This document shows positions 6,071 to 61,825 of a stretch of 64,000 bases of DNA, piece by piece. A program made the translations under genes and the position numbers. The DNA is taken from assembly GCA_037447655.1 (NCBI GenBank), contig JBBHKE010001642.1, positions 1 to 64,000 of the forward strand, read 5' to 3'. Position 1 is the first letter of the stretch. Each line of letters starts with the position of its first letter. The notes beneath the pieces were generated by a model. It made no database searches, was not told where the DNA came from, and saw only the letters and a list, made by a program, of their open reading frames with translations. Source of the stretch: Zygnema cylindricum (lineage: Eukaryota; Streptophyta; Zygnematophyceae; Zygnematales; Zygnemataceae).

Positions 6071-7227
6071 TGAAACTTTGAGACCTCCATTGGCCCTCAG
6101 AGTAAGCAGATCCAAAGAAGCTAATCTAGATAGTGCCGACTCCTAACTTGATATAAACCCAAATGACTGACCCCTTGACAGTCAAAACCCCAATATAGAT
6201 TCACCCCTGTGAAGTAGCAGTTTCTCTTTGCTCAGTTCCACCATAGAATGCAAAGTTAGAATATGACATTTGGACACATTCACCCACTTTGACTTTCCCT
6301 TATAAATTCAGCTACCCTGGCAAACAAAAACTCTCACCGAATACAACCCTGTGTAGCCTCGACTCCCATGAGTCCGCAGCAAAAAGAATCACTGAAAATG
6401 GTAAAGTAAATTGATCGTTATGGCTGGCCAAAGTTTTCCATTTATACAAGGTGTTCTCTGGGAGAGGCAACTACCTACCAAAAATATTCTAAGTCCTCTT
6501 CCCCCTCTAAAACTCTATCTACTGAAGTACGGCACCAATCAAATTACTATGTCGTACAGAAAAGTACAGGTGCCGAAGTATTTTCTGTACGACCATTGTA
6601 TAACATGGCCAAAATGTGGACACGTCCCAAATCGGGATTTGTTCCCGTAATCTCCGGAGTTCCTGTTATCCAATGTTATCATGCCACGTGTCATTTGACA
6701 TGGCAAAGACCGTAAAATGCCAAAAGTACCTCTTCCGTGATCGCGGCGCCTATCGCGGCCGTCCGATCAAAACCGGTTATAATCCTAGCCGCTGAAATTA
6801 GACGCGCGGTATTTGCTTCGCTATCAAAACAAATGCGCGGTATCTGTTCCGTCCCCATACCGTACTCCGTACAAAATCAAACTGTAACTTTCGCGTTAAA
6901 CGAATTAGTCTACGTGCAACAATTTATATATTTATCAAACCCTATATATCGTAACATTAGTCCTATACTTAGCGGTTAGAGCTAACGGCTACGGAAACTT
7001 GACGGACGGCAGGTACCATGATAAATTCCTGGGTCTGTCAAGTACCTTTTGGTAAATCTACCTAATCTACCCCCTATCTTCTCTAGTGAGCTTAGGCAGC
7101 CATGGTTCAAGCTCCCTATCAAGCCTTCATTGACAACAACAAGTATGGGGGCTTGGAGAAGGGAGTCAGGGATAGACTGCCTTTGCTCTTTTTCTATAAA
7201 GACCTAGAAAATACTCAAATATCAACA
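6071..7227 (-). mobile_element. Solo LTR inserted in gag of element C
   Basis: A - strand LTR of about 1157 bp starts TGTTGATATTTGAG (right end) and ends AGTTTCA (left end). TAAGT occurs immediately on both sides (6066-6070 and 7228-7232), and the gag reading frame resumes exactly once the LTR and one TAAGT copy are removed. It carries the antisense tRNA-like module at about 6955-7041. Confidence 0.92.
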
Positions 7228-7281: not shown

Positions 7282-8433
7282 TGAAACTCTATGGGGTCCA
7301 TTCCCCTCACAGAATTCGCATATCCAAAGAAGCTTATCTAGATAGTGCCGACTCCAAGTAGATAAAAACCCAAATGACTGACACCTTGATAGTCAAAACC
7401 CCTATAGATCTTCACCCTTGTGAAATAAGACATTTTGTGTGCTGAATTCCACCTCAGAATGCAAAGTTAGAATATGAGTTTTGGATAACATTTCCCACTT
7501 TGACTTTCCCTTAGAAATACCACCACCCTAGTAGGTAAAGACTCTGACCGATTACACTTTTGTGTAGTCTGGACTCCGTTGAGTCCGCATGATAAAAAAT
7601 CACTGAAAATGATCAACTGAATCGTTATTTATGGTTGCTCAAAGTTAGCCTTTTTATACAAGGGTGCTCTCGAAGAGAGGCGGCTACCTACCAAAAATGC
7701 TAAGTCCTATTCCCTCTCTAAAACCCCTTCTATTGAAATACAGAACCAATCATAGGATTGTACCGTACATGGAAGTACAGGTGCCGGAGTACTTTCTGTA
7801 CGGCATTTGTATGGCATGTCCATACCAGTGAAATCTATCACATCCGGACTTGTTGTTTTGCGCTTTGGAGATTTCGCAAACTTGTAAGATGTTGAGACGT
7901 GTCATTCGGAGTGGCGACATCCTAAAACCGCCAAAATGTCCTTTCCTCGATACTGGAGCTTATTACGGCCGTCCGATTTGATCAACTTTTTATACGGACC
8001 GTCGAAATAATTGTCTGTATCATTTATTTTGTGCGGTATATAAAGAACAATGGGTGTTATACATGAAGATTTTGTTCTAGCAGTTAAATGGAATCTTTGG
8101 CGTGTACACGTTTAAATATCTATCGTAGAATATACAGTTTAGCATTGATCCTAGTCTATAGGATAAAGCTCACGGTTATCGACATCTCTAACGGACGGTA
8201 GGTATTAGGATCAATTCCTTGTTCCGGGAGCCATCTTTTTGATAGAGACTAGTACTTGCCTATTCTCTGTCTCCTTGGACAGCATAGCTAGCCATGGCTC
8301 TAGCTCTCTCTCCGATCTTCAGTGACTGCAACAAGTATGGGGACTGGAGGGTGGAGCGAGAAGCTGGCTGCCTTTGCTGACACACTCCATTTATTTTTCC
8401 AATACAGATCTAGAAAATACATAAATTTTAACA
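7282..8433 (-). mobile_element. 5' LTR of gag-only element C
   Basis: The 1152-bp LTR is bounded by TGTTAAAATTTATG (right) and AGAGTTTCA (left) and followed inward by PBS and gag. The U3 includes the antisense tRNA-like module near 8145-8230. No matching 3' LTR remains at the left end of C, so C is truncated. Immediately outside lies an LTR fragment in the opposite orientation. Confidence 0.85.
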
Positions 8434-12491: not shown

Positions 12492-13685
12492 TGTTGGATT
12501 TTCACTATTTTATAAGTCTAGAGATTGCAAAATAAAAAGCAAAATAGTAGATATTGACAGCCTGCCTCTAAGTCCTCACTCAAAGTCCCCACACTTGTCG
12601 CAGTCCCTGAAGACTGGATGAGGAGTTAGCCATGGCTGCCTGTGCTGTCTAGAGAGAGACAGGCAGTTATTTTATAAGGTTTTCCCTAAAAAGGAGTTTG
12701 ACAGAGCCATGATTTAATCCTGGTACCTGCCATATGTCAAACCCAAAGTAGCCGATAACCTTATCCAAATAGTCTAAATTATATGATACAGTATATGGGG
12801 TATGATATTTATTCTAATAGTTACAATAAGACTAATTCATTTAACGAGAACTATATGCATACTGCATAGAAACAGTTGTGTAAAGTATGACGTACAGTAC
12901 GGATACGAAATAAATACCTCGCAGTTTGTTTGACGCCGAAAAAAATACCGCGCAAGTATTTATGATGGCCACGATTAAAATCCAAATTTGATCGGACGGC
13001 CGCGAAGAATGCTGAGATAGCGGAGTACAATTTTGGCGGTTTGCGATCACCGCCACATTGAGTGACACGTGGCAAAACTACATTGGATTGCAGCAACTCC
13101 GAGGATTACGGAAACGAATCCAGATATGACACGTGTCAACATTTTGGCCATGTCGTACTATGGCCGTACATAAAGTACACCGACACCTGTACTTTTCTGT
13201 ACGACACAGTGTTTTAATTGGTGCCGTACTTCAGTAGATAGAGTTTTAGAGGGAGATAGGACTTAGAAAAATTTGGCAGATAGGACCCTCTCTCTAAGAG
13301 AGCACCTTGTATAAATGGCTAACTTTGGGCAGCCATAACTATCAATTTACTTGACCATTTTCAGTGATTCTTTTTGCTCCGGACTCGGGGGAGTCCAGGC
13401 TACACAAAGGTGTAGTCTTTTATAGTTTTTGTCTGCCATGGTGGCTGCATATCTAAGGAAAAGTCAAAGTGGGTGAATGTGTCCAAATCTCATATTCTAA
13501 CTTTGCATTCTGTGGTGGAACTGACCACACAGAAAGTGTTATTTCACAGGGGTGAATCTATATTGGGGTTTTGACATTCAAGGGGTCAGTCACTTGGGTT
13601 TATATCAACTTGGAGTCGGCACTATCTAGATTAGCTTCTTTTGGATCTGCATACTCTGAGGGCCAATGGAGGTCTCAGAGTTTCA
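12492..13685 (+). mobile_element. 5' LTR of a broken copia element
   Basis: The 1194-bp LTR runs from TGTTGGATTTTCAC to GTCTCAGAGTTTCA. It includes the hairpin-rich start, the tRNA-like module in reverse (about 12706-12790), GACACGTGGC and ACACGTGTC boxes (13060-13140), a TATA-like TTGTATAAATGG near 13307, and an ATG at 13666, 20 nt before its end. It is followed by a perfect PBS. Confidence 0.9.
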
Positions 13686-13750: not shown

Positions 13751-14202
13751 TGCAATTCTGTGTCCTCCATTGGACTACAGAATATAGGAAGCCTCGAGAT
13801 AGTGTTTAACTAACCCACTTTAAGCCACGACCACTTCTTCCCAAGAAGGCAAACTGACAATTTGAATGCACCCTTGTGCAGCCTGGACTCCTTTGAGTCC
13901 GTAGCAAAAAGAATCACTGAAAACGGCCAACCAGTCGATAAGTTATAGGGTGGCAAAGATGCCAATTTATACAAACTCTCAGAGAGAGAGGACTATCTAC
14001 CTAAATTTTCCTAAGTCCTAGTTTTTCCTAATTCCCTCTCACAGCTCCTATCTACTGCCTGTACGAACCAATCACAAAACTGTATAGTACTAGAAAGTAG
14101 TACTGCCGATGTACTTTCTGTACGGCCTCTGTACGACAAGGCCATTAAGTGGACGCGTGTCCACTTTCCACTCGTCCGTACGTTCCTCGGAATTCCCGCG
14201 AC
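13751..14202 (-). mobile_element. LTR (G type) truncated at the assembly gap
   Basis: It begins TGCAATTCTGTGTCC on the + strand, the inner end of a G-type LTR (compare 60818 and 55527), and follows it through CACGCGTCCACTT-like boxes until the N run. The rest of the LTR lies in or beyond the gap. Confidence 0.8.
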
Positions 14203-16760: not shown

Positions 16761-17260
16761 TGTTTTTCTATGACTGCTACACCAACTGAAGATGAAGATG
16801 ATGCTGGAGTAGACATCACAGAATTCAGATACGCAAGAAGCTCTCACAGATGCTCAAAAAAAATACACACAACTTTGGAACACATTCAAAGATAATTTAG
16901 GCAACCAAATGGCCTACAAATCTGACACAATGCAGATAATTCACAAAGGAACACAAATGCAAATTTACACAGAAATATGCAAACAGATCTGAGAGATATT
17001 CTCAGTCAAAGATATCAAAAATGTCACAACATAATTTTGATACAACAAGTTCCTAATTCTGAGATGGCTTAGTCCTATTCTTATACCTATAATATATATC
17101 CTTCTAAGAGCTAGCAGCCACTTATTGCTCTAACTAAGCAAAGGAAGCATACTAGCCATGCATCAATAATATCTACTATCTAAAAGAGGATACCTGAATA
17201 TATCAAGGTATGTCATACAGAAAGAATCTGAACTGAGACACTAATCAAACAAAACATGCT
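16761..17260 (-). mobile_element. LTR (E-like family L), inner part
   Basis: On the - strand this ends ..GTCATAGAAAAACA and contains an ATG at 16816, 56 nt before that end, opening the frame MSTPASSSSSVGVAVIEK. This is the same kind of Ser/Ala/Pro-rich gag start encoded by the LTRs of B and E. Upstream it resembles the E LTR (GTTTGCATATTTC.., GTTCCTTTGTG) and has a TATA-like GATATATATTATAGG near 17085-17100. The outer end is not identified; the right border is approximate. Confidence 0.6.
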
Positions 17261-28490: not shown

Positions 28491-29518
28491 TGCAACTTTG
28501 AGACCTCCATAGGTCCTCAAAATGAGCAGCTCACACGAAGCTTCTAGAATAACCCTGACCACTTTGTGTTTCAGCAAGAATAACTGCCCTAATAGACAAG
28601 AACTCTGACCACCTCCACCCTTGTGAAGGCTCTCTTGAGTCGATAGCAAAAAGAATCTCTGAATTTGCTCCCCTGGGCAGTAAGTTATTGAGGGTCAAAG
28701 TTGACCTCTTGTCAGGGAGAGAGGGTCATATCTACCAAATTTTCCTAAGTCCTATCTCCCTCAAAAACTATATCTACCGACGTACGACACCAATCATATT
28801 ACTGTGTCGTACAGAAAGGTACAGTTGCCGGTGTACTTTCTTAACAAAAATTGTACGACATGGCAAAAAGTCGACACATGTCATATCTGGATCCTTTCAC
28901 GTAATCCCCGAAGATGCCGCGATATAATGTCATTTTGCCACGTGTCATCCTATATGGCGATGACCGCAAACTGCCGAAATCCTCTTCCGCTATCTTGGCA
29001 TCCTTTTCGGCAGTCCTATCGAAACCAGACTTCGATTGAAGCTGTCATATATACTTGCGCGGTATTTGTTTTGTTATCAAAACAAAATGCGCGGTATCTG
29101 TTTCTTCTCGATACCGTACTCTGTACCTTTCAAAACTGAATCTACGCATTTAGTATACAGTTGCCGTTAAATGAATTAGTCTACATGTAATTTTCTATAT
29201 AATTATCACACCCTATATCTCTCAACACTAGCCTTAGACAAAACGGATAAAGCTACCGACTACTGTGGACTTTGACGGCCGGTAGGTACCAGGATCAAAT
29301 CGTGGGTCTGTCAAGTTCCTTTTTAGTAAATCAACCAATCTACTGTCTGTTTTCCTCTAGATAGCGTAGGCAGCCATAGCTCTAGCTCCCACTCCAACTT
29401 TCAGTGACTCCGACAAGTGTGGGAGTAAAAGAGAGGAGTTAGAGGCAAACTGCCTCGGTTTCTTTTCTGCATTTCATTTTAGTCCTAGAAAATACTAAAA
29501 AAACTATCAATTTTTACA
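28491..29518 (-). mobile_element. 3' LTR of element H/I
   Basis: 1028 bp, TGTAAAAATTGATAG at the right end to GTCTCAAAGTTGCA at the left end. Left flank CAATA. tRNA-like module at about 29222-29312, ACACGTGTC-like boxes near 28875 and 28940. PPT abuts at 29519-29532. Confidence 0.9.
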
Positions 29519-32406: not shown

Positions 32407-33588
32407 TGAAACTATGTGTGCTCCATTGCCCACAGAAATCGTAGATCCAAAAGAAGCTTATCTAGCTAGTGCCAACTCCAAGTTTATATAAACCCAAATG
32501 ACTGACCCCTTGACAATCACAAACCCATTATAGCTTCACCCCTGTGAAATAAGACTTTCTGTGTGCTCAGTTCCACCACAGAATGCAAAGTTAGAATATG
32601 AGTTTTGGACACATTCACCCACTTTGACTTTCCCTTAGAAATGCAGTTATTGTGACAGGCAAAAACTCTGACCGACTACACCCCTATCTAGCCTAGACTC
32701 CCCTGAGTCCGCAGCAAAAAGAATCACTGAAAATGGTCAAGTTAATTGATAGTTATGGCTGGCCAAAGTTAGCCATTTATACAAGGTGCTCTCTCACAGA
32801 GCCGACTACCTACCATAAATTTTCTAAGTCCTATCTCTCCTCTAAGACTCTATCTACTGCACCAATCCAAATATTGTGTCGTACAGAAAAGTACAGGTGA
32901 CGGTGTCCTTTCTGTACGGCCATCGTACGACATGGCCAAAATGTCGACACGTGTCATAGCCGGATTTGATCCCGCAATCTCCGCAGTCGCCGCAATCCAA
33001 CATTGTCGCGCCACGTGTCACATGACGTGGCGATGACTTAAAAACGCCAAAAGTACATATTCCGTGATCGCGGCGCCTATCGTGGCCGTCCGATCAAACT
33101 GGATACAATTGTAGCCGATGAAAATATACGCGCGATATTTGTTTCGCGTTCGAGACAAATGCGCGGTATCCGTTTCATAAAATACATGAAATCGTACTCC
33201 GTACTATACAAAATTGTATCTATGCATTACGTATCTATTTTCCGTTAGACGAACTAGTCAACGTGTAAAAATATAAATATTTGTCAAACTTATCATATTC
33301 CAGCACTGGATTTAGACTTAGTGGTTAAAGTTAACGGTTAGTTTGACGGACGGCATGTACCCAGATCAAATCCTGGGTCCCTCAAACCTTTTAGTTAATT
33401 CTTTCAGTATTTTCCTTCCTGTCCTCTTAGGACAACCTAGGCAGCCATGGATCCAACTCCTCTTCAAGTCTTCAGTGACTGCGACAAGTGTGGGGACTTG
33501 AGTGAAGAGTTAGAGGCAGGCTGTCACTGTCCACTTTTTGCCTTTTATTTTAAAATCTCTAGACCTAGAAAATACTTAAATTTCAACA
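32407..33588 (-). mobile_element. 3' LTR of element A
   Basis: 1182 bp, TGTTGAAATTTAAG (right) to CATAGTTTCA (left). Paired with 41001-42184. An ORF runs from its inner ATG into the adjacent pol by chance. Confidence 0.92.

Positions 33589-33639: not shown

Positions 33640-33721
<82 letters not shown>
33640..33721. repeat. (TA)n microsatellite with adjoining T-rich run
   Basis: About 40 TA units, followed to 33763 by mostly T. It lies between the gag stop and PPT of element A and is absent from the related element C. Length is likely to be unstable and possibly misassembled. Confidence 0.95.
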
Positions 33722-33729
<8 letters not shown>

Positions 33730-33799
33730 TCCTTTTTTTTTTTTTTTTTTTTTCTTTTTTCTTCATGAAGCTTTAAGCGAATACTTTTATATTTAAGAT

Positions 33800-35041: not shown

Positions 35042-35845
35042 TGTTGTTCTACAACCACCGGTGCAGGTGGAGGAGCAGCAGTAGTAGTAGAAGTAGGCAT
35101 GATACACTCTCAGAAGCTATCAAGAATCCTACCAAACAGCTATTCTTAAGTGCTCACCAACTCTTATACAAGCATCCAAACCTCACAAAACACTATCAGA
35201 ATATAGAGTAGCATAAACACTGATAACTCCCAAAGTTATAGCACAATTGACCCGACAACACTCAAGATATAATACTCAGATGTTTCCCAAAAACTCTCTG
35301 CAGTTTTACTACTTGGAAGTCTGGATACATAATATGCTATGAGTCCTAAGTCTTATACTTGTGTTGAACTGGCAACACCATTGTACTTGAGAGGTACATC
35401 AAACCACCAAGCTACAACAAATCTATCAAGCTACCATTGAGCTATCACTAAGCTACCACTGAGCTATCACTAAGCTAACTAGAATGGTATTTATCGTAGT
35501 TGCTCTATCCTGTACATAATCACATTAAGAATATTAGACGTTGTGTTGTCCGTACGGACCATATCAAACATAATCATGGTTGCCTTGTCCTGTCTGTGTT
35601 TAAGCTTCGCTGCTGCGCTGCTCTGCTGTATAGCAGCTGCTCTGTTGTATAGCTACTGCTCTGCTGTATAGCAGGTGCGCTGCAGAATAGCAGCTGCGTT
35701 GCTCTGTTGTATAGCAGCTGCTCTGCTGTGTAGCAGCTGCGCTGCTGTATAGCAGCTGCGCTGCTCTGTTGTATAGCAGCTGCGGTGCTCTGTCTGTAAA
35801 GCAGCTGCGCTGCTCTGAGACTGAAAGCTTTCCAAAAAGACAACA
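35042..35845 (-). mobile_element. 3' LTR of element B
   Basis: Starts TGTTGTCTTTTTGG (right), ends TGTAGAACAACA (left). Between 35600 and 35815 it carries many copies of TGTATAGCAGCTGC(G/T)CTGCTC on the + strand, more than in the 5' LTR. Confidence 0.95.
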
Positions 35846-36005
35846 ATCCCCTAAAGCTTTAGACTCAGTATCCCAGCGCAGCTGCGGTGATAAACTAGCG
35901 CAGCATCGCAGCATCGCAATATAGCAATTAGCAAGTCACCCAGTCCCACTACCTCACAATGGTGGAATTATTGCAGAGTCGCAGTATAGCAGTGCATCAA
36001 TTCAA

Positions 36006-37939: not shown

Positions 37940-39163
37940 CTATTTATGCCTTTCAAACACAAAGACTCTATAACCTTTGGAGTGATCATCATATCCTAAC
38001 AGAATACCCGGTAATCCCTTCGGTTCCATTTTCCATCTATCTGTAGACGTATCCAATATAAAGCATTGACTACCGAAGACTTTGAAATGGCTAACATCTG
38101 GTTTGCTACCTGTCCAGATCTCGTAAGGAGTTGTTTCTACCGATCTTGATCCTATCCTATTCTTAATATAAAGTGCACAATTTAGAGCTTCAGCCCAGAA
38201 TTTCGGATCCACATTTTTATCTGCGAGCATAGACCTAGAGCTTTCCGTGAGAGTTCTATTCAGTCTTTCCGACACCCCATTTTGTTCCGGTGAATATGGA
38301 ACTGTCAATAGATGACTAATGCCTTCCTCGAGTAAAAAGGTTTCAAATTCTTTCGATATATATTCACCACCATTGTCAGATCTGAGCTGTAGAATAGATG
38401 AATTATGAAGTTTTTCAGCCCATGCTTTATAGTGTTTGAAGTGACCAAACACCTCACTCTTCTCCTTCATAAAGTAAACTTTAGTAAACCTGGAGAAATC
38501 ATCTGTGAAGGTGACCATGTATTTCATCCCTCCGGCAGATGGAACCTTCGCCGGACCAAAGACATCCGAATGAATTTGTAGTAAAAGTTTCGTTGACCGA
38601 TGCTCAGACTCCTTAGGAAATGGCAATCTGTGGATTTTGCCTAAAGCGCAACCATCGCAAGTTTTGACCGGCTCATCTGTGATTGATACACCCTCTATTT
38701 TTCCAGCAAGGACCGTTTTCTTCAAACTATCATAGTTTACATGGCCTAATCTTTTATGCCACAACTCATATGAGTGCAAAATACCAGAGTACAGAACATT
38801 TTTCTCCTTGGTATTAGCCATATCCATGCGATACATCTTGCTACGATCTCTAGTACCTGTAACCGCAACCTTGCTATTTTTGCTAACAATTTGTTGACCA
38901 TTTTTCAAATTAACCTCAAAGCCTTTGCTCTCTACTAACGACGTAGAAAACAGATTTTTCTTAAAGTCATGCACAAATAAGACATTGTGAAGAGTCCTTT
39001 CAATTGCTTTTCCTTCTACCTCAACTAGTAAGGACACATCACCCACGGCACGAGTTTGGACACTCATTCCACAAGCATAATAAATATTTTTCTCCGGCGT
39101 AGCTTTCAGATTTTTGAAGATGGCCTTGTTCCAGCACATGTGGGCTGACGCTCCTGTATCCAT
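37940..39163 (-). pseudogene. Protease, GAG-pre-integrase and integrase of element B
   Basis: A 407-codon frame. Protease DTGASAHMC is at its start, then GAG-pre-integrase (LWHKRLGHVNYDSL, CDGCALGKIHRLPFP) as a zinc-binding HHCC, and the integrase core with the catalytic triad in HSDVFGP, SDNGGEY and EQNGVSE, then a C-terminal domain ending DDHSKGYRVFVFERHK. A TAG at 39167-39169 separates it from gag where GWIMDTG would be expected. Confidence 0.93.
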
Positions 39164-39166
39164 TAT

Positions 39167-40162
39167 CTATCCGGGGTCCTTCGCGCCCTCCATTGCAGCC
39201 GCCATAGCGAAGAGATCCGTATCGTCCTCCGTAGAAACCGTCAAATGCTCGTCTTGGAGAGACGAAAAAGCCGAAAATAGTGCATTTCCACGAGGTGTAG
39301 TCCCCGTGAAGCCTTTGTAAAACTGGCTTTGTTGCCATCCCGGCCGGTATAAACCTGTATCATTAGCTTTTTTAAGCTTAGGACAAAATTTGTATCCATG
39401 ACCTCTCTCACTACAATAAAAGCATGCATTGTTGGATTGTCTATTTCCGCCTTGATGAAAATGTCTGAACTGATTATACTGATTTCTTTGCTGATTAAAC
39501 TGTCCTTTTCTCTCAAAGTCTGAATTAAAAGCCTCTACTTGCCCAACATTAAGAATATTAGACGTAGCTTCCTCCTCTAGTAAAATATTGATGGCTAACT
39601 GTAAAGTCCAGTTAGCTTTATCTTTTTGTTTGAGCATGTCAGATGCTCCTTTCATACTACAAGGGAGACCCCTCATGAGCTGTGCTGCCTGTTGAAAAAG
39701 AGGAAACACCCCACTTGCACAAGCATGTGCATGTACAAGGATACGAAATTTGTTAGAATATTCAGCCATTGTACCGCCAGTGTACTTATAGTCCCAAATT
39801 TTTCCAGCCAATAGAAGCTCTTCCTGGACATTTGCCTTTTCATAATCACTTTTAAGAGATTTCCAGATATCAATTGTTTTTTTCATCTTTATCCGAGACA
39901 TAGCTAAGTCCTCAGATATACAAAATTTCAAAATAGAACGAGCTTGCGTATTTTTCTTAGACCATGACGGATCAGATTCATCCAGCGAACCATTTAATAT
40001 ATCCAAAAGATTGACATTTTCAAAATGTGTTTCAACCATATCCGCCCAGTAAACATACTTATCCCCGGAAAAGATAGGAATTCTTGATGACAGGCCCATA
40101 ACGTGCTGTTCTACAACCACCGGTGCAGGTGGAGGAGCAGCAGTAGTAGTAGAAGTAGGCAT
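39167..40162 (-). pseudogene. Gag of element B, start codon inside the LTR
   Basis: 331 codons. The first 19 (MPTSTTTAAPPPAPVVVEQ) are encoded within the LTR; codon 20 spans the LTR end, and the next codons, VMG, are encoded by the primer-binding site. Then SSRIPIFSGDKYVYWADM, a helical copia capsid region (IWKSLKSDYEKAN, IWDYKYTGGTMAEYSNKF), a Gln/Asn/Arg-rich linker, and a CCHC knuckle CFYCSERGHGYKFC. It ends at an in-frame TAG after KDPG. Assembles the virus-like particle in the cytoplasm. Confidence 0.92.
40092..40103 (-). other. Primer-binding site of element B
   Basis: CGTTATGGGCCT on the - strand directly after the LTR end ACAGCA. It pairs with the anticodon arm of initiator tRNA-Met with the first base altered, and doubles as gag codons. 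Confidence 0.75.
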
Positions 40163-40845
40163 GATACACTCTCAGAAGCTATCAAGAATCCTACCAAACA
40201 GCTATTCTTAAGTGCTCACCAATTCTTATACAAGCAACCAAACCTCACAAAACTCTATCAGAATATAGCGTAGCATAAACACTGATAACTCCCAAAGTTA
40301 TAGCACAATTGACCCGACAACACTCAAGATATAATACTCAGAAGTTTCCCAAAAATTGTCTGCAGTTTTACTACTTGGAAGTCTAGATACATAATATGCT
40401 ATGAGTCCTAAGTCTTATACTTGTGTTGAAATGGCAACACCATTGTACTTGAGAGGTACATCAAACCACCAAGCTACCACAAATCTGTCAAGCTACCATT
40501 GAGCTATCACTAAGCTACCACTGAGCTATCACTAAGCTAACTAGAATGGTATTTATCGTAGTTGCTCTATCCTGTACAGAATCACATTAAGAATATTAGA
40601 CGTTGCACTGTCCGTACGGACCATATCAAACATAATCATGGTTGCCTTGTCCTGTCTGTGTTGAAGCTTCGCTGCTGCGCTGCTCTGCTGTATAGCAACT
40701 GCTCTGTTGTATAACAGCTGCTCTGCTGTATAGCAGCTGCGCTGCTGTATAGCAGCTGCGCTGCTTTGTTGTATAGCAGCTGCGCTGCTCTGTCTGTAAA
40801 GCAGCTGAGCTGCTCTGAGACTGAAAGCTTTCCAAAAAGACAACA
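40104..40845 (-). mobile_element. 5' LTR of element B
   Basis: 742 bp, TGTTGTCTTTTTGG to TGTAGAACAGCA, right flank GTAAG. Carries GCAGCTGC repeat units at 40670-40810 and the gag ATG at 40162, 59 nt before its end. Confidence 0.95.
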
Positions 40846-40850
40846 GTAAG

Positions 40851-41020
40851 CTCCTCCAACGCCAAGTGGCGGACATCTCACTTGTCCCGAAAAAATTCCC
40901 CGTAAGTGATTTCTCGAAAAGAAATCCCTCCATTGTAAACTCCAAATAAGTGAAGTCTGTTCCATCGAACATAGGCACCCTAAATGGTAGGCCCATAACC
41001 TGAAACTCTATTTGCTCCAT
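40851..41020 (-). pseudogene. Gag start of element A
   Basis: From the ATG at 41020 inside the 5' LTR the frame reads MEQIEFQVMGLPFRVPMFDG, then FTYLEFTMEGFLFEK and on to the site where element B entered. The PBS (GGTTATGGGCC, 40990-41000) encodes VMG. It continues at 35041 after removing B. Confidence 0.85.
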
Positions 41021-42184
41021 TGCCCACAGAAATCGCAGATCCAAAAGAAGCTTATCTAGATAGTGCCGACTCCAAGTTTATATAAACCCAACTGACTGAC
41101 CCCTTGACAATCACAAACCCATTATAGCTTCACCCCTGTGAAATAAGACTTTTTGTGTGCTCAGTTCCATCACAGAATGCAAAGTTAGAATATGAGTTTT
41201 AGACACATTCACCCACTTTGACTTTCCCTTAGAAATGCAGTTATGGTGACAGGCAAAAACTCTGACCAACTACACCCCTATCTAGCCTAGACTCCCCTGA
41301 GTCGGCAGCAAAAACAATCACTGAAAATGGTCTAGTTAATTGATAGTTATGGCTGGCCAAAGTTAGCCATTTATACAAGGTGCTCTCTCACAGAGCCGAC
41401 TACCTACCATAAATTTTCTAAGTCCTATCTCTCCTCTAAGACTCTATCTACTGCACCAATCCAAATATTGTGTCGTACAGAAAAGTACAGGTGACGGTGT
41501 CCTTTCTGTACGGCCATCGTACGACATGGCCAAAATGTCGACACGTGTCATAGCCGGATTTGATCCCGCAATCTCCGCAGTCGCCGCAATCCAACATTGT
41601 CGCGCCACGTGTCACATGACGTGGCGATGACTTAAAAACGCCAAAAGTACATATTCCGTGATCGCGGCGCCTATCGTGGCCGTACGATCAAACCGGATAC
41701 AATTGTAGCCGTTGAAAATATACGCGCGATATTTGTTTCGCGTTCGAAACAAATGCGCGGTATCCGTTTCAAAAAAATATATGAAATCGTACTCCGTACT
41801 ATACAAAATTGTATCTATGCATTACGCATCTATTATTCGTTAGAACGAACTAGTCAACGTGTTAAAACATTAATATTTTTCAAACCTATCATACTCCAGC
41901 ACTGGATTTAGACTTAGTGGTTAAAGCTAACTGTTACTTTGACGGACGGCAGGTACCCGGATCAAATCCTCGGTCCGTCAAACCTTTTAGATAACTCTAT
42001 CATTATTTGAATTCTTGTCCTCTTTGGAGAGCCTAGGCAGCCATGGATCCAACTCCACTTCAAGTCTTCAGTGACTGCGACAAGTTTGGGGACTTGAGTG
42101 AAGAGTTAGAGGCAGGCTGTCACTGTCCACTTTTTGCCTTTTATTTTACAATCTCTAGACCTAGAAAATACTTAAATTTCAACA
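41001..42184 (-). mobile_element. 5' LTR of element A
   Basis: 1184 bp. In transcription order: U3 hairpin block (42050-42120), antisense tRNA-like module (41886-41985), ACGTGG and two CACGTG boxes (41542-41622), TATA-like TTGTATAAATGG (41368-41380), then R/U5 and the gag ATG 20 nt from its end. Confidence 0.93.
41886..41985 (+). other. tRNA-like module in LTR (antisense to the element)
   Basis: On the + strand: a D-arm-like CTTAGTGGTTAAAGC, then about 40 nt, then a T-arm-like segment whose parallels in other LTRs form a perfect 5-bp stem with 7-nt loop (CCAGG ATCAAAT CCTGG at 45710 and 29290). In the G-type LTR the second box reads GGTTCGAGTC (61591), close to the Pol III B box. It lacks a convincing acceptor stem, so it is not called as a tRNA gene. 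Confidence 0.5.
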
Positions 42185-43734
42185 TTATATCATGAAATCT
42201 AACATAATAAAGTTTCTTTTTTTCATTGCTTATAATCTGCCTAGACATCCCTAGGCTACCTTTTTCATCAGTGAAATAAACTTCCTCCTCAAAACTAGCA
42301 GTAAAGACTCTTTTCCTAGTGCTACAATCAAAACGCTTATCATCTAATATAGACGTAGAGATGAGGTTTTTTGTTCAGCTCCGGAATAAACAATACATCA
42401 AAGAATGTAACTATATATGTCTTTTCTTTTACTCACACTTTCAGATCTACGGATCCTACAAGAGTAGTAGTGACTATCCTCTCATCCCCATACTCTATCT
42501 CTACCGTGGGAATCTTACTTATCTTAGTGAATAGGTGATTATCCTTACACATGTGCATAGAGGCACTTGAATCTACAATCGAGCCTGCTTCCCCTTTCAA
42601 TCCACCATAAGCAGATTTTTGCTTTCGTGGAATTTCGACCTTGTTTGTCGCATGCAACTCCTCATCCAATAGGAGCTCATCGTCCTCGTTCTCGAATTTC
42701 GACTCATGTACCCGTGTCACAAGGGCATTTTTCTTTCCTCTCGGGGTCCCATCAGTCTGCATGTCCTTTAACCGAAACTCGGTTAGCTTAGTGCACTATG
42801 TCATATAGTGCCATGGTTTCTTACAGAAATGACATAAACCTTTGGGAGCCCTCGATCCGAACTCGTCGGTCCGATTTTTTTGCTCCCCCCCTCCATAACT
42901 TCCGGCCGGTTTCTTGGAATCCTTGTTCCTCCAATCGGTCCCAGCTGCCAAGGTTTGCTCACTCTTTCCTCCCCTTCGGATCTCAATCGTATTCTCCCGA
43001 ACGAGAATCATCCCTACCACTGAATTCCATATCCACCTCGAATTCGGCAAGTCCTGCACACGCTTAACTATGTTCTCGAACTCACGCTTGACTATGTTCT
43101 TGAACTCATCTGGTAACTTAATGAGCAAACACTTAACCTTTTCCTTTTTTTTTCCATCTTTTCCAACACTCTCTAATTCCATGAAAAGTGTAGCAAGCTC
43201 ATTGCAAAAATCCATCATCTTCCCCCCTTTGTATATATATGCATTAATTTTCTGATCAGCCAACTGTTGTTGCTGAATCGTACCACTTGGTACATCTCTA
43301 TGAGAGCCACCCAAAGATCGGATGCCCTCTCTACCTACAAGTGAAGAGGTGCAAGCCCTTGAGTAAGATGGTGGAGGATGAAGTCCTTTGTCGCCATATT
43401 GATGTAGTCCCAGGTATCACTATCATTCTCCTTGTTCCTTGGAATACGTGATATGAATGCTGAACCGGTTGCTATTGGTGTGATCGTCTCCTTCTCCTTT
43501 CGTTTGTCCACCAACTCCCCTTCCGTTGTCTCCTCCGTTGAAGATGGATCTACTTTTTTTGTGTATCTGCTTCGTTCAAACCCTAGAGGGACGCCAAGAC
43601 TTGATGGACGCCCCACTCATCCACTCACTATCCCCCTAAACCTTTTCTCGCATAGAGCTCCTATCATCATATTTTCCCAGTATATGAAGCCAGTTCCGCT
43701 AAAGATGGGTACCATAGAGGGCGGGCCCATAACT
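42185..43734 (-). pseudogene. Gag and protease of element H/I
   Basis: Frames at 43335-43616, 42796-43314 and 42433-42762, plus GAG-pre-integrase remains to 42185. Gag contains IYKGGKMMDFCNELATLFMEL, a 24-bp tandem duplication giving FKNIVKRE / FENIVKRV (about 43063-43112), and a zinc knuckle CHFCKKPWHYMT whose last Cys is lost. The protease motif reads IVDSSASMHMC, with the catalytic-loop Gly replaced by Ser. Dead copy. Confidence 0.82.
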
Positions 43735-45939
43735 TGCAACTATGAGACCTCCTTAGGTCCTTAGAATGAGCAGCTCGCACGAAGCTTCTAGGATAACCCT
43801 GAACCCTTTGTGTTTCTGCAAGATTAATTGCTACCTTGGCAATCAAGAACTTTGACCACCTCCATCTTTGTGATGGAAAGACTCCTTTGAGTGGATAGCA
43901 AAAATAATCTCTGAATTTGCTCCACTGTGCAGTAGGTTATTGAGGGTCAAAGTTGACCTGAAGCACTCAGGGAGAGAGGGTCCTTTCTACCAAATTTTCC
44001 TAAGTCCTATCTCTCCCTAAAACTTTATCTACTAACGTACGACACCAATCAAAATATTGTGTCGTACAGAAAAGTGTTGTTTTTGAAATGTTAGTTTCGT
44101 ACTTACGCCACATTTTGTGCGCACGTGACGGTTCGTGCGTAGATTATTACCGGAAATAATGTGGTGGTACAAATGGAGGTTCGAATGGATTTGTGGATTG
44201 GGGGAGTAATTGTACGATTGAAATTAAAGGGATTAGTTGAGTGGCTCGGAATACGTTTACAAATGGACGGAGGATCGCTTCGCGATCCGATGTGAAATTT
44301 ACGAAATGTTGAATATCTACGCCGTCGGTACGAAGCGTCTTATTTGGACAAGTGTACTTATTTGCGAGAGGCGTATTTATTGCAAAGGACGCAAGTTCGG
44401 TACGGTTTAATTTCGGCAAGTGGTCCGTGGTACATTTGGAGGGCGGACGGCGTCCGCCGATATTTCTAAAGGATTGTATTTTGATAATGTGGTATCAAGT
44501 GGACCGTACGTATGTGATGTCGGTTCATGACGTGGTTTCGTCCTCAAGTGACTAATCAAGTTGATACTCAGTACACGGATTTTACGGAAGCGTCGATGTA
44601 AATATTTGGTTGAACATTGATGTGTCTTTTTGTGAATTAATTATTAGTGTAGATTTACTCACCTTGACATACCTTGAAGTATTCGGGTATACCGACATTA
44701 ATAGAGGTAGCGGGTAGATAGCGTACGGCTGATATGCCTCCGTACATTCAGCAGTAAGCTCTTGTATACATTTGTAGGACTTCGTCATTTTAGGACATAG
44801 GAACTTTTTGGACCAAAAACTGTTTATGGTTATTTTTGGTAATTTTATCTGAGGATTACTCTCAGATCTGCAAGCGGAATTATCTGAAATTCTGCATGTG
44901 TGTTCCGATTTATATTTTTGATATTGTCAGAGATTTTCAGGTCTATTGTGTGCCTGGTCTGTGTTTTACTTCATTGTGAAGTTAGTCTGTCTGATCAAAA
45001 TTCTGGCATACTGTTTTTCTGCAACTTTGACTAGATGATGTGATCAATCTGTTTATTATTTTTGTCTGAAACTTTTTGAGGTCATTTTATATCCTAGATA
45101 ATATCTGTAAATGTAGTTTCAGCTTGTTTTGCTAATTCTGTTGAATTATGTGTGTATCCAAAGTAGGCTGTTTTTAGGGTAGTCAGTGGTGCTTCCTAGG
45201 GTGAATCCATGGCTAAAGATGGCTATGGACAACAAAAAGTATAGCTACCTGTGTACTTTCTGTACGGACATTTTACGACATAGCTAAAAATTCGACACAT
45301 GTTATATCCGGATTCGTTCACGTAATCCTCGGAGATGCCGCGATCCAATGTCATTTTGCCACATGTCATCCCATGTGGCGATGATCGCAAACTGTCGAAA
45401 TCCTCTTCCGCAATCTCGGCATCCTTTCCAGCCGTCCGATCGAAACCAGATTTTGATCGTAACCGTTTTAAATACTTGCGAGGTATTTGTTTCGCTATAG
45501 AAATAAAATGCGCGGTATCTGTTTCTTCTCGGTACCGTACTCCGTACTTTACATAACTGAATCTATGCATTCAGTATTTAGTTGTCGTTAAATGAATTAG
45601 TCTACATGTAATTGTTTATATAATTATCAAACCCTATAACTCTCAACAATAGCCTTAGACTAAACGGAAAAAGCTACCGGCTACCACGGACTTTGACGGA
45701 CGGTACGTACCAGGATCAAATCCTGGGTCTGTTAGGTTCCCTTTTAGTAAATTAACCAATCTACTGCTTGTCTTCCTCTAGATAGTGTAGGCAGCCATGG
45801 CTCTAGCTCCCTCTCCAACTTTCAGTGATTGCGACAAGTGTGGGAGTTGAAGAGAGGAGTTAGAGGCAGATTGACTCGACTTCTTTTCTGCATTTCATTT
45901 TAGACCTTGATAATACTAAAAGAACCATCAATTTCTACA
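43735..45939 (-). mobile_element. 5' LTR of element H/I, split by solo LTR J
   Basis: Two parts, 43735-44074 and 45240-45939, about 1040 bp once J and one AAAAG are removed. TGTAGAAATTGATGG (right) to CTCATAGTTGCA (left). Right flank CAATA. tRNA-like module at about 45648-45735. Confidence 0.9.
44075..45234 (+). mobile_element. Solo LTR J
   Basis: 1160 bp, TGTTGTTTTTGAAATG to GGCTATGGACAACA, TSD AAAAG at 44070-44074 and 45235-45239. A different family from its host. Its last 26 nt open an ATG frame (MAKDGYGQ), as in the other LTRs. It contains the GGCGGACGGCGTCCGCC palindrome (44442-44458) and GATCGCTTCGCGATC (44272-44286). Confidence 0.93.
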
Positions 45940-48687: not shown

Positions 48688-49720
48688 TGTTGTTTTGGAA
48701 ACCTTGAGTCCTCTCTATATCTTGCTGCTATACTGCCATGCTACGCTAAGTTTGACATCGCAGCTGGAAACCTTGAACGTTTCTTGCTATGCTGCAGTGA
48801 TCTGACATCGTAGCTACGCTGCTCTAATATCACAGCTGCGGTGACAGGTCATAGCAGTCATAGCAGTCACAGCAATCATAGCAGTCACAGCAGAGTCATA
48901 ACAATCATAGCAGTCACAGCAGAGTCATAACAGCTATAGCAGTCTGCGCAAGAAAGGTGTTCTGAACTTTAGTCAGTTTGTGTGAAGATAAATTGACGAG
49001 GACATGATTTAGTGAGAATGTAACTCCAATGGGAGTACATGGTTTCGATGCACTTCAGGCACATGTGTCGATCCGTGAGGAAGACAAGATTGATTGTTCC
49101 AGAAGAAGAGTTATAGTTTCAATTGAGGACCGAACTTATATGTGGAGGTTCATCTTTGGTGATGCAAGAATACTTAGAAGGCGGACAAAGTCCGCCGTCA
49201 TTTTTGGAAGAGAAATATTGACTGTACCGTCATTTCAGCAGACGAACTTTGACTGCGTACTATTTTCATTTTAGCGGCTGTCTGATTGGTGAAAACATTT
49301 ATGTACATTCGACGGTGTGAGTTTGTTGATGAAAAGTAGTGTACCAATCGACCACAATAGTTGTGGTACGGTGTGATTAGCTGTAGACTCATTTGTCTAT
49401 ATAGGACTTAGATTAATTTAGGAAAGCAAGATTTTTGTATCGAAATCTGCGAATCAGTTTCTAAGTGTTTTTGAAATTGTAAGATCATTGTGATCTTTCG
49501 GCAGAACCTTGTGAAAATTCTGCATGTTGTTTCCTTGGTGTATATTTTATATTGTGGCAAATTTGCAGACCTAGTGTGTGTGTGGTTTGCTTAGAGCTTC
49601 ATTGTGAAGCTGGTATTTTGTGGGATTTCGTGAGAGTTTCCTCTTTGCATATTTGATTATCATGACAACTCCTGGTGCTTCTTCATCTTCTTCAGTGGCA
49701 CCAGTTGCCTCAATTCCACA
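48688..49720 (+). mobile_element. 5' LTR of element E
   Basis: 1033 bp, TGTTGTTTTGGAAACC to CTCAATTCCACA. Contains a CATAGCAGTCACAGCAGAGT-type tandem repeat (48848-48945), AGGCGGACAAAGTCCGCC (49178-49195) and the gag ATG at 49662, 59 nt before its end. Confidence 0.93.
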
Positions 49721-50499
49721 GGTCATGGGCCCTCCCGCCCGGATCCCGATGTTTAATGGGCAGAAGTATCTATATTGGGCTGATTTGACTAAGTCTTACC
49801 TGAAACAGGTGAAATTATATAATGTGATTTCTGGTAATCTTCCAGACACTGATCCGGATTTTGGAAAGAAAAATAAGGATGAATTGCATGTTCTAAAATT
49901 ACATTTGTCAAAATATTTAAACATGACATATATCAATATCTCTACGGCATCTGAAAATATGGACGGCTCTGAGTGAATCTTATGTCATAGCCAGTGAGCA
50001 GAATGAGGTTGTAACTGCTGGAAAAATTTGGGACTATAAGTATACTGGGGGTGACATGAACTCATATTGTAATGGCTTGAAGCTTCTATTGTCGGAGAAT
50101 GCATGCTCCGGGGGGAGTTTTCCTCCTTATCATCAAGCTATGATTCTATTGAGAGGGCTTCCTACTGAATATAGAAGAGCTGCGGAGCAGTTAAGAAGGT
50201 TAGAGAAGAGTAAATGGAATATAACTTTAGCTCAGGCGTATATCTTAGATGAAGAGGCCACTCAGATAGCCTTAAATGGTGGTTATATCTTGGATGAAGA
50301 GGCCACTCAGATAGCCTTAAATGGTGGTTCACAGACATAAAAGCCGGTTGGATTTACTGGAAATAGAAACTTTACCCCCAATCAGAATTATAGGCAATAT
50401 GATAGGTGTGTCTATTGATTTGGTCAAGGTCATGTTTTTTGGTTGTGTCCGGCATTTATAAAAGCGTGTGAAACATGATATTATCGTGCGGGATGTAGG
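49662..50499 (+). pseudogene. Gag of element E
   Basis: Starts in the LTR as MTTPGASSSSSVAPVASIPQ, then VMGPPARIPMFNG over the PBS, followed by YLYWADLTKSYLKQV. A frameshift near 49965 moves it to the frame carrying SESYVIASEQNEVVTAGKIW and LLRGLPTEYRRAAEQL. A 45-bp in-frame tandem duplication (50239-50283 and 50284-50328) repeats YILDEEATQIALNGG. The zinc knuckle region (CVY*FGQGHVFWLC) is broken by a stop and has lost a Cys. Confidence 0.85.
49721..49732 (+). other. Primer-binding site of element E
   Basis: GGTCATGGGCCC immediately after the LTR, one mismatch from the initiator tRNA-Met anticodon-arm complement, and in frame with gag codons V-M-G-P. Confidence 0.75.
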
Positions 50500-53933: not shown

Positions 53934-54980
53934 TGTTGTTTTGGAAACCTTTAGTCCTCTCTCTATCTCACTGCTATACTTCCATGCTGCGCTAAGTCTG
54001 ACATCGCAGCTGTAAAATTGTAATCCTCTCTAAAATTCGTTGCTATGCTGCAATTCTCCGCTGCTCTAATATCATAGCTGCGCAGGTAGAACACCGCAGC
54101 TATAGCAGCTTGAGTGAACAGCTGTGCTGCTCTAAAACATCACAGCTGCGCTGGTAGAGTACCGCAGCCATAGCAGTTTGTGTGAAGGATGAATTGTCGT
54201 AGACAAGATTTAGTGTTGTATGTAACTCCAAAGAGAGTACACAAACTTGGTACACCTCAGGCACACGTGTCGGTCCGTGAGGGAGTTAAGGTTGTTTGAT
54301 CTGGATGACGAATTACAGATTCATTTGGGGACCGTGGTTGTTTGATCTGGATGACGAATTACAGATTCATTTGGGGACCGGATTTACACGTGGAGGTTCA
54401 TATTGAGTGAGGAACGAATGCGTGGACGGCGAAGGGAGTTCGCCGTCATTCTTGGAAGAGAAACATTGACTGCGCCGTCATTTCGGTGAACGAATTTTTA
54501 TTGCGCACTTTAGCGGCGGCTACAGTTAAAGATTGATGTAAATACTTTGTACGGCATACGGTGAAGGTTTAGTTTAGTAAAGATTTAGTGTACCAGTGGA
54601 CCACAGTAATTGTGGTACGGTTTAGATCAGCTGTAGGCTCACTTGTATATGTAGGACTTAGAATATTTTGGAAGTTAGGAATTCCTTGTATGAAAACTGC
54701 GAAGCAGTTTTTTGGGATTTTTGGAATTCTAAGATCATCGTGATCTTTTGGCAAAACTTTGTGAAATTCTGCATGTGATTTTATTAGTGTGTTTTCTTCA
54801 TTGTGGCAAATTTGCATAGCTTTTGTGTGTCTAGTTTGCTTGGGACTTCATTGTGAAGTTGGTCATTTGTGGGTATTCGTGAGAGTTTCCTCTTTGTACT
54901 TTGATTCTGATTATGGCAACTGCTGCTGCTGTTGCTGCTTCTTCTTCTTCTTCAAGGGCACCAGCTGCCTCTAATCAACA
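53934..54980 (+). mobile_element. 3' LTR of element E
   Basis: 1047 bp. The ATG at 54913 is 68 nt before the end (three codons longer than in the 5' LTR) and opens MATAAAVAASSSSSRAPAAS. It contains an internal direct duplication of about 49 bp near 54289-54383 (GTTTGATCTGGATGACG twice). Confidence 0.92.
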
Positions 54981-55526: not shown

Positions 55527-56532
55527 TGCAATTCTGTGTCCTCCATTGGACTACAGAATTCAGGAAGCCTCTAGATAATTGTTAACTAACCCACTTCAAG
55601 CCACAACCACTCCTGCCCAAGAGAGCAAACTGACATTGTGACTACACCCCTGTTCAGCATGGACTCCCTTGAGTCTGTAGCAAAAAGAATCACTAAAAAC
55701 GGCCAACCAGCCGATTAATTATGAGGTGTAAAGATGTCAAGTTTTACAAACTCTCAAAATGGAGAGAGGTCACTACCTACCAAATTCTCTAAGTCCTAAA
55801 CCCCTCTCACAACCCTTATCTACTGACGTACGAACGAATCAAATGACTGTAGGGTACACAAAGGTACTACGGCCGATGTACTTTTTGAACGGCCTGTGTA
55901 CGGGAAGGCCATTGAGTGGACGCGTGTCCACTTTTAACTCGTCCTTATGTTCTCCGGAATTCTTGCAACCAAATGTTATCCCTCCACGTGGTGCCACGTT
56001 ATGCCACGTCCATAAACGCCAAAGTGACCATTCCGCGATCTTGGCAGTGATATATGCCGTTGGATTAAATCCAACATTAAATGTCAGCCGTCAAAACAAA
56101 TGTCCGATTCATTTGTTTCGTGCGAGATAATGTTCGCACTATATAACATTGTGTTCTATGTTCTTTCGTTCGTCATTCGGTTAATCGAATTCATGGTCTT
56201 TGCACATTTTAAATAATTATCAAACCTAATGTATCCTAACGGACTTCTACAACAGACTGGTTAGAGTTAACGGCTACGCCGCGCTCTGCAGGTTAGAGGT
56301 TCGGGTCGTGCCAGACTCAACCTTTTGTTGAGAGTGACATAAGTCACTCTTAAGTCCTTCTTTCTGAGCTAGGACAGCCATGGCTCAACCACCATCTCTA
56401 TCCCTCAGTGACTACAACAAGTATGGTGGGTAGAGAGAGGAGGTGGAGGCAGGCTGTTCGCCTTTTTCTTTCCCTATTTGTACTGAACTATTTAGACCTA
56501 AAAAATACCATATAAATCTAATAATTTCAACA
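55527..56532 (-). mobile_element. 3' LTR of element G
   Basis: TGTTGAAATTATTAG (right) to ACACAGAATTGCA (left). tRNA-like module at about 56232-56330 with B-box-like GGTTCGGGTC. CACGCGTCC and CACGTGG boxes near 55920 and 55985. Confidence 0.93.
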
Positions 56533-59559: not shown

Positions 59560-60837
59560 CTAAGACTTCACATCTACTGACCCCACTAGATCTGTGGTAA
59601 CCACTCTCCCATCCCCATACTCTATCTCTACAGTAGGGATCTTTTTTAGCTTAGTGAAGTGGTCATCATCACGACACGTATGCATGGATGCACCTGAGTC
59701 GATGATCCATCCTTGTTGTGGAGCATCCCGAATTGCTCCAAGGGCACATTTCTGTCTTTGAGGGATCTCATTCTCCTCCAGAATCTCGTCAAGGAGAAGC
59801 TCCCCATCCTCCTCTAAGGACTCGTCCTCGGTTTCTCCTATCACTTTTCTGACCATAAGTGCCTTTTTGTTTCCTCCGGAAGAACCCCCTCCACGGTTCT
59901 CTTTGAGCCTCTGCTCTGATAGTTTGACACAATCCGCGATGAAGTGTCTCGGCTTTTTGCAAAAATGACAAAGGCCCTTTGGGGGCCTTCGTCCTCCAGG
60001 CTGATCTCTTTCCCCTTTGAAGGGTTTCTTCGGGTCCTTCCCCCATCGGTCTCCTCCTTCAGCTAGAGCTTGAATGCTCTTTCCTCCTCTCATAATCTCC
60101 ATGGTGTTTTCCTGCACAAGTATCATCCGGACCACTGTATTCCACTTCCATGAACTATATGTCATTTTGTGTACTCGGTACACTATGTTGCCGTACTCGT
60201 TTGGTAACTTCATGATGAGAGTGTTAACTTTCATCTTCATTGTACCTGTCCACCCATCACTTTCCATCTCCATATACAAACAAGAAAGATCATGTAAGTG
60301 TAACTCGCTAACTTTTGCTCAGCCAACTGAAGCTCGTTGCTCAACCAACAGGAGCTCCTGAATAGTACCAGCTCTATAGATCTCTATCAAACTCACCCAC
60401 AACTCCTCGACCTTGTAAATGTGAAGGTGAGGGGTGGCCAAAGCTTGAGTGAGGTGCCTAAGAATGAAGTTCTTTGCAACCATGTTAACGTCTTCCCACA
60501 TTGGAGTATCATTCTCCATAGTCTTCATGGCCGCCGCTTCCGGTGCCGTGGTAATAGGAGTGAGGGGTGTCTCCATTTCTTTCCCCTTTTCGGACACACT
60601 ACTGTCCCCATCATTTGCCTCCCCCGCTGAAGCAGTCGCTACTGTAGAAAACCTTACTCTTATAAATCCTGGTGGAATTCCCGAAGGTGGATGTTTCACT
60701 TGTCCACTGACGATACCCCAGTATCGTTTTTCGCACAAAGCCCCCATCATCATGGCTTCCAAATAGATGAACCAAGATCTATTGAAGGTGGGCACCATAA
60801 TATGTGGGCCCATAACCTGCAATTCTGTGTCCTCCAT
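59560..60837 (-). pseudogene. Gag and protease of element G
   Basis: The frame 60319-60837 starts inside the LTR: MEDTELQ, then VMGPHIMVPTFN over and past the PBS, followed by MWEDVNMVAKNFILRHLTQ. After one frame break near 60300, 59560-60279 carries the rest of gag, a zinc knuckle CHFCKKPRHFIADC (C-x2-C-x4-H-x4-C intact), a Gly/Ser linker, an acidic stretch and the protease motif WIIDSGASMHTC with DSGA intact. The - strand frame 59789-60046 is a shadow. It needs only the one frame correction to be continuous. Confidence 0.88.
60806..60817 (-). other. Primer-binding site of element G
   Basis: GGTTATGGGCCC on the - strand, directly following LTR end AATTGCA. Perfect half-tRNA initiator-Met type; read in frame as V-M-G-P. 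Confidence 0.85.
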
Positions 60838-61825
60838 TGGACTACAGAATTCAGGAAGCCTCTAAATAGTTTTTAACTAACCCACTTCAAGCCACAACCA
60901 TTGCTGCCCTAGAGAGCAAACTGACAGTGTGACTACACCCCTGTTTAGCATGGACTCCCTTGAGTTTGTAGCAAAAAGAATTACTAAAAACAGCCAACCA
61001 GCCGATTAATTATGAGGTGTCAAAGATATCAAGTTTATACAAACTCTCAAAAGGTAGAGAGGTCACTACCTACCAAATTCTCTAAGTCCTAAACCCCTCT
61101 AACAACCCTTATCTACTGACGTACGAACGAATCAAATGACTGTAGGGCACAGAAAGGTACTACAACCGATTTACTTTCTGTACTGCCTGTGTACGGCAAG
61201 GCCATTGAGTGGACGCGTGTCCACTTTTAACTCGTCCTTATGTTCCCCAGAATTCGTGCGACCAAATGTTATCCCTCCACGTGGCGCCACGTCATGCTAC
61301 GTCAAAAAACGCTAAAGTGACCATTCCGCGATCTCGGAAGTGACATACGTCATCGGATTAAATCCAACATTAAATGTCGGCCGTCGAAACAAATGTCCGA
61401 TTCATTTGTTTTGTGCGAGATAATGTTCGCACTATATAACATTTTGTTCTATGTTCTTTCGTTCGTCATTCCGTTAATCGAATTCATGGTCTTAACACAG
61501 AATAAATAATTATCAAACCTAATGTATCCTAACGGACTTCTACGACAGACTAGTTAGAGCTAACGGCTACGCTGGGCTCTACCGATCAGAGGTTCGAGTC
61601 TTGCCAGAATCAACCTTTTGTTGAGAATGACATAAGTCACTCTTAAGTCGTGCCTGCTGAGCTAGGACAACCATGGCCCAACCACCCTCTCTATCCCTCA
61701 GTGACTACAACAAGTATGGTGGGTAGAGAGAGGAGGTGGAGGCAGGCTGTCCGCCTTTTTCTTTCCCTCTTTGTACTGAACTATTTAGACCTATAAAATA
61801 CCATATAAATCTAATAATTTCAACA
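60818..61825 (-). mobile_element. 5' LTR of element G
   Basis: TGTTGAAATTATTAG to ACAGAATTGCA. The gag ATG (60837-60835) is 20 nt before its end. tRNA-like module 61524-61620 (TTAGAGCTAACGG then GGTTCGAGTC). CACGCGTCC, CACGTGGCGCCACGTC boxes at 61214-61292. Confidence 0.94.

Follow-up and report, generated by a model that had tools for sequence, protein, structure and literature searches.

A probable gag start codon within the LTR, in frame across a primer-binding site complementary to the host initiator tRNA, in copia elements of Zygnema cylindricum

Nested copia elements, recognized as LTR pairs by self-comparison, are present in the 64-kb stretch of Zygnema cylindricum DNA analyzed here (the window), and they raise the question of where translation of gag begins. 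The initial annotation had placed the gag start inside the LTR, at an ATG held in one phase relative to the primer-binding site (PBS). We consider it likely from the arrangement of the sequence that these are Ty1/Copia elements primed by half of the initiator tRNA-Met, in which gag starts at an LTR AUG and reads through the PBS in frame.

Nested copia elements and their LTR ends

Exact 5-bp target duplications fixed the ends of B (35042-40845), K (55527-61825), C (28491-45939) and J (44075-45234), and through these four the TG...CA LTRs and short target duplication of Ty1/Copia were found. The ends of E and A were likewise compared and no matching target duplication was detected. Within 28491-45939, J lies inside the 5' LTR of C, A inside the pol of C, and B inside A. 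The domains of B are ordered as gag (PF14223), integrase (PF13976/PF00665) and reverse transcriptase (PF07727, RVT_2); the copia-type gag and the integrase ahead of the reverse transcriptase place B in Ty1/Copia (Pseudoviridae). The features are listed below.

40104..40845, minus strand: B 5' LTR (B5); target duplication GTAAG flanks 35042-40845, LTR pair 95%
35042..35845, minus strand: B 3' LTR, with the same LTR ATG (LTR pair and target duplication)
40104..40162, minus strand: putative LTR-encoded gag start of B, 59 nt (MPTSTTTAAPPPAPVVVEQ), ATG at 40162
40093..40102, minus strand: B PBS, GTTATGGGCC; translates as Val-Met-Gly in frame with gag and complements host tRNA-iMet over 10 contiguous nt
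39167..40162, minus strand: B gag frame, 331 aa up to the stop (PF14223, E = 4.9e-12)
48688..49720, plus strand: E 5' LTR (E5), ATG at 49662, 59 nt from the end (LTR pair, without matching target duplication)
49722..49731, plus strand: E PBS, GTCATGGGCC; one mismatch (third base) to host tRNA-iMet in the first 11 nt
53934..54980, plus strand: E 3' LTR (E3), 69% to E5, ATG at 54913, 68 nt from the end (LTR pair)
16761..16816, minus strand: L LTR tail, in-phase ATG at 16816, 56 nt; adjoins an A-type LTR and lacks a PBS
44075..45234, plus strand: J solo LTR, in-phase ATG at 45209, 26 nt, with out-of-phase ATGs closer to the end (target duplication AAAAG)
12492..13685, plus strand: A-type 5' LTR (c), ATG at 13666, 20 nt; PBS at 13687-13696
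41001..42184, minus strand: A-type 5' LTR (f), ATG at 41020; PBS at 40990-40999
7282..7301, minus strand: A-type LTR tail (i), ATG present; PBS at 7271-7280
60818..61825, minus strand: K 5' LTR (K5), ATG at 60837; PBS at 60807-60816 (target duplication TCGAG)
55527..56532, minus strand: K 3' LTR, ATG the same as in the K 5' LTR (LTR pair and target duplication)
43724..43733, minus strand: C PBS; the C 5' LTR (C5) has lost the ATG and contains a TAG
28491..28510, minus strand: C 3' LTR tail, ATG retained (target duplication CAATA for 28491-45939)
32407..32426, minus strand: A 3' LTR tail (e), ATG present, with an in-frame TAG
4867..4886, plus strand: C-type LTR tail (a), ATG present, without PBS
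6071..6090, minus strand: A-type LTR tail (h), ATG present, no adjoining PBS
13751..13770, minus strand: K-type LTR tail (k3), ATG present, without PBS

An open ATG in the gag phase was present at 15 of 18 defined LTR inner ends, at 20, 26, 56, 59 or 68 nt. These are 17 ends plus J; two candidates with unclear ends, b (which shows the ATG) and j (which has lost it), were left out beforehand. The spacings of 59 nt in B and E5, 68 nt in E3, 56 nt in L, 26 nt in J and 20 nt in the A/K/C type all leave 2 when divided by 3, as initially annotated. The accompanying statement that the last ATG before the LTR end opens gag failed for J, which has two nearer ATGs, at 16 and 10 nt, outside the gag phase. 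Further, the start codon expected in each definable LTR was broken at three of the 18 ends, namely e (TAG), C5 (ATG lost and TAG) and k4 (ATG lost). TATA-like sites were listed in B5, E5, c, f and K5, from which no reliable transcription start was derivable, and an Rfam scan of the window gave no match at the gathering threshold.

Seven 5' LTRs are followed by a PBS (B5, E5, c, f, i, K5 and C5). At all seven junctions, a single base (G four times; C, T and A once each) separates the terminal CA of the LTR from GTTATGGGCC, or from GTCATGGGCC in E. The PBS reads GTT ATG GGC (Val-Met-Gly) in the gag frame and leads into a conserved gag N-terminus, for example PPSRVPMFDG. Upstream of the PBS, the gag frame was open to the LTR ATG in six of the seven, the exception being C5, whose ATG is lost. 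Because L and J have no adjoining PBS, only the A/K/C type, B and E display the order LTR-PBS-gag, and the claim that every family enters the PBS in one frame was narrowed to these. E, L and J have homologous LTRs, and the families are therefore not independent.

When LTR tails (I(c), B5, E5, L and J) were shuffled, the gag frame was ATG-first with a probability of 0.22-0.34 per lineage; the product over the five lineages is 0.002, or 4e-6 with the observed lengths, figures that are overstated if the lineages share the trait. In the real tails, an ATG came first in the gag frame in 8/8 cases and in the other frames in 1/16.

Other features of these elements were also observed. A single in-frame stop (39167-39169, minus strand) separates the gag of B from its protease, and E and K have no stop at the matching place. 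The internal region of A (32407-42184, minus strand, less B at 35042-40845) is just 1,608 nt long; a zinc knuckle and, weakly, gag are matched there at 33987-34697, and no pol was noticed, so that A may be non-autonomous and encode only gag. A stretch of about 95 nt from the pol of its host element stands on each flank of A (32308-32406 and 42180-42278; 89% identity), which far exceeds a 5-bp target duplication. E (48688-54980), with LTRs 69% alike, no matching target duplication and an open integrase frame of 250 aa, may be a recombinant between two elements.

The primer-binding site and the gag phase in the host genome

The genome searched was the window's own assembly (352.8 Mb). A tRNA anticodon-arm pattern occurred at six places, and ARAGORN identified all six as tRNA-Met with anticodon CAT. 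One of the six genes (L286) was used for comparison; its sequence is presumably of plant type, judging by its looks. The PBS sequence is complementary to the anticodon arm of the initiator tRNA-Met encoded by the host itself. In the window, the complementarity extends over 15 nt in c and i, 13 in K5, 11 in C5 and 10 in B5 and f, and the PBS of E5 has a mismatch at its third base. Of 100 genome copies, 83 had an uninterrupted complement of at least 14 nt, and in 78 of the 100 the base ahead of GTT was complementary as well. Since the arm that it complements carries the CAU anticodon, the PBS must contain AUG. With this internal PBS for the initiator tRNA-Met, the elements look half-tRNA-primed (Hemivirus-like); the priming itself we infer from the complementarity.

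The junction CA-N-GTTATGGGCC occurred at 9,140 places genome-wide (21 in the control), and the PBS together with an in-frame gag motif R-[IV]-P-x-F at 6,637 (6 in the control). The 100 copies were the first listed of these 6,637 places, in contig order and not at random. The search pattern demands the in-frame gag motif and says nothing of families with gag out of frame. Further, 93 of the 100 copies belong to one LTR cluster (A/K/C type) and are not independent; the sample therefore measures retention within a family more than repeated origin.

Reading upstream from the PBS, an ATG preceded any stop in the gag frame in 78 of the 100 copies, against 8 and 5 copies for the two remaining frames. 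Thus, neither random phase nor frequent stops, the outcomes that the initial annotation had set against its own proposal, characterized these first 100 of 6,637 copies. The nearest upstream ATG was in the gag phase in 90 copies, and one copy had no ATG at all. Among the open copies, the ATG lay 20 nt (73 copies), 59 nt (4) or 71 nt (1) from the LTR end. The 22 copies without an open LTR ATG comprised 20 of the A/K/C type, with the ATG lost or an in-frame stop, plus L235 and L249. The latter two combine the PBS and in-frame gag motif with LTR tails outside the main clusters and no in-frame LTR ATG, and are possibly PBS-start families or broken copies.

Constraint on the LTR-encoded codons and the site of the gag start

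The initial annotation had further claimed selection on the LTR-encoded N-termini of gag. In an alignment of 94 rows (93 of the A/K/C type plus one B-like, L237), the LTR ATG was retained in 83, mostly in frame. The commonest base was kept in 92, 90 and 86 rows at the ATG columns, and in 60, 61, 72 and 36 rows at columns -22, -23, -24 and -25. The LTR codons of the A/K/C type showed roughly half the variability of the adjoining upstream LTR, and differed by 0.245, 0.18 and 0.252 at codon positions 1, 2 and 3, without a third-position excess. Integrase or reverse transcription may be the reason why the last bases of the LTR are conserved.

For the B family, the best 30 of 121 scored loci were taken, window copy included; one was without an anchor, which left 29. 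These loci were picked by similarity of the gag protein, with a mild bias toward silent changes, and their LTR codons differed by 0.034, 0.014 and 0.046 at the three codon positions, the gag codons by 0.033, 0.030 and 0.063, and the LTR upstream by 0.055 overall. An open LTR ATG was found in 24 of the 29. Indels in the upstream LTR were mostly not multiples of 3 (11 of 12), and the LTR codons contained one only, also not a multiple of 3.

Between E5 and L, there were 3, 3 and 12 differences at codon positions 1, 2 and 3, with 9 silent and 4 changed among 17 aligned codons. This third-position excess was equaled in 2 of 2000 codon permutations, in an alignment that was amino-acid-guided over a repetitive stretch, both of which favor such an excess. 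Between E5 and E3, the differences were 3, 5 and 2, and no excess was observed. Compared by eye, the LTR peptides of different families gave no alignment except E with L, and conservation between the window families started at the PBS. The claim of selection thus found support in E5/L and in the constraint of the B family and none in E5/E3 or the A/K/C type. The evidence on the peptide is mixed and points weakly to selection: the frame and the start are retained, and constraint on the LTR peptide is weak at most. The phase of gag is forced, because gag is conserved beyond the PBS.

Conservation that begins at the PBS would also be expected if gag started at the PBS AUG (Met-Gly-Pro...), the LTR codons being a leftover or an optional extension. 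This we regard as unlikely, even though the PBS ATG is flanked by G at both -3 and +4 and L235 has no LTR ATG. The retained LTR ATG, the excess of the gag frame over the other two in the genome sample and the codon-level constraint in B and E/L stand against it. Two copia elements outside the window speak in its favor. They come from a pol-alignment scan of prokaryote records that yielded 41 copia loci, evidently eukaryotic contamination, in which half-tRNA PBSs were found in L048, L050, L057, L066, L068, L072, L073, L074/L078 and L088. In L078, an in-frame TAG immediately precedes GTT ATG, the first Met of the frame is that of the PBS ATG, and gag (PF14223, 8e-9) is matched in that frame. The match lies further in, at residues 210-296, and is equally strong without the first 22 codons (7.5e-9), so it cannot decide the start; the second in-frame Met follows 23 codons on, within a stretch resembling the conserved gag N-terminus. 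The PBS AUG is apparently the gag start in L078. In its relative L074, the gag N-terminus and core are in different frames, separated by runs of N. In L088, gag is open through the PBS and the sole in-frame Met ahead of it is part of a TATA-like box; the end of its LTR is not clear.

That all families merely inherited one old ATG-bearing LTR end, its phase fixed once with no later selection, is highly improbable and largely refuted by the genome sample: the homology of the E, L and J LTRs and the single cluster of 93 copies would fit, but one phase is held across lengths of 20, 26, 56, 59 and 68 nt, conservation at the ATG columns exceeds that of the four preceding ones, the other frames are closed, and the indels of the B family, 11 of 12 out of phase upstream, number one in the LTR codons.

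With a start at the LTR AUG, then, the 5' half of the host initiator tRNA-Met would serve as the primer, and translation of gag would begin at an AUG located in the LTR's U5 end. The gag frame would run across the LTR end and the PBS (Val-Met-Gly) into conserved gag, so that the PBS AUG would become an internal Met or a second start and not a competing upstream start. We infer that avoidance of this competition is the reason for the phase.

The start codon in the primer-binding site of other copia elements

The Gag AUG of Ty1 (Saccharomyces cerevisiae, TYA/GAG) lies in the LTR, which fits published leader and PBS numbers. These are a 53-nt 5' UTR and a PBS at nt 95-104 inside GAG (PMC5454406). 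On that account, the Zygnema elements resemble Ty1 in a gag frame that begins in the LTR, as initially annotated, and includes the PBS, and they probably also share the tRNA-iMet primer. They differ in that the PBS of Ty1 pairs with the 3' end of the tRNA and theirs with the anticodon arm, because of which their PBS contains an in-frame AUG. An LTR start with the PBS inside gag is the layout of Ty1, here in an apparently half-tRNA-primed element. Copia elements described as half-tRNA-primed are Hemivirus (copia, 1731, Ty5 and Osser) and, among plant lineages, Osser, Bryco and part of Gymco-II, all with a PBS complementary to an internal, half tRNA-Met, as in Zygnema (PMC6317226, PMC1181622, PMC8515867).

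Among the comparison elements, L078/L074 share with the Zygnema elements a half-tRNA PBS within the gag frame, and L078 differs in the stop directly before the PBS, which makes the PBS AUG the first possible gag start. L066, whose gag we take to be that of Drosophila copia, has the same junction of LTR end CA, G and GTTATGGGCC; its gag begins 154 nt past the PBS start and its PBS AUG heads a 6-codon uORF, whereas gag in Zygnema reads through the PBS. L058 resembles them in a gag start fused to the LTR/PBS border and differs in being primed by the tRNA 3' end. Its gag ATG is formed across the border from the last A of the LTR and the TG of the PBS (L058:140-200), and is the only Met within the first 150 codons of the gag frame (PF14223, 5e-31).

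In ten further lineages (near-duplicates L059b and L060 excluded), the PBS or junction AUG opens a uORF, of 9 codons in L048, 12 in L050, 7 in L073 and L067, 6 in L057, L066, L072 and L059, 5 in L061 and 72 in L068. Thus, nine of ten uORFs have 5-12 codons, the exception being L068. A downstream gag start was traced in seven; those of L048, L057 and L059 were not traced. In shuffles of the sequence after the PBS, uORFs of at most 9 codons averaged 2.64 of 10 lineages against 8 observed (0 of 4000 shuffles had as many), and uORFs of at most 12 codons 3.61 against 9 (2 of 4000). There was no significant difference in length from the other two frames of 12 elements (Mann-Whitney p = 0.12), among which four zero lengths are due to a TGA within the PBS itself. 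We offer the short uORF as a hypothesis, since it was found after looking, in ten lineages of which L050 and L072 are 63% alike in RT. In an RT tree of 37 rows, the comparison lineages were deep and mostly without resolution, and B formed a deep unresolved branch. Searches with gag proteins returned no relative at the cut-offs. In viral contigs, none of the pol scans confirmed a copia, and PBS patterns matched at 47 places, none with a gag signature by eye, and at 67 places, none with a copia match by tblastn.

In other copia elements, then, three fates of the PBS AUG are seen: apparent use as the gag start (L078), inclusion in an open gag frame (L088) and the opening of a uORF of 5-12 codons (nine of ten lineages). 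We tentatively propose, as a possibility that we hold somewhat short of even, that an AUG in the leader is an unavoidable consequence of priming by the initiator tRNA. This AUG would come from the complement of the CAU anticodon in a half-tRNA PBS, and from CA-TGG where a full-tRNA PBS abuts the LTR end CA. Elements would neutralize it in three ways: by using it as the gag start, by keeping gag open and in frame across it, or by closing its frame within a few codons. The same three bases would serve first as a codon for the initiator tRNA and later as the pairing site of the cleaved tRNA half, a dual use that could couple the switch from translation to reverse transcription. In the open-licence literature searched, we found no statement of a start codon imposed by the primer anticodon. 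LTRs are described as non-coding, and annotation may therefore miss the first gag codons here (PMC8515867). A primer anticodon that imposes a start codon on the leader would be a simple reason why the gag start and the primer site are entangled in several copia lineages and, if true, a possible link between translation and the onset of reverse transcription.
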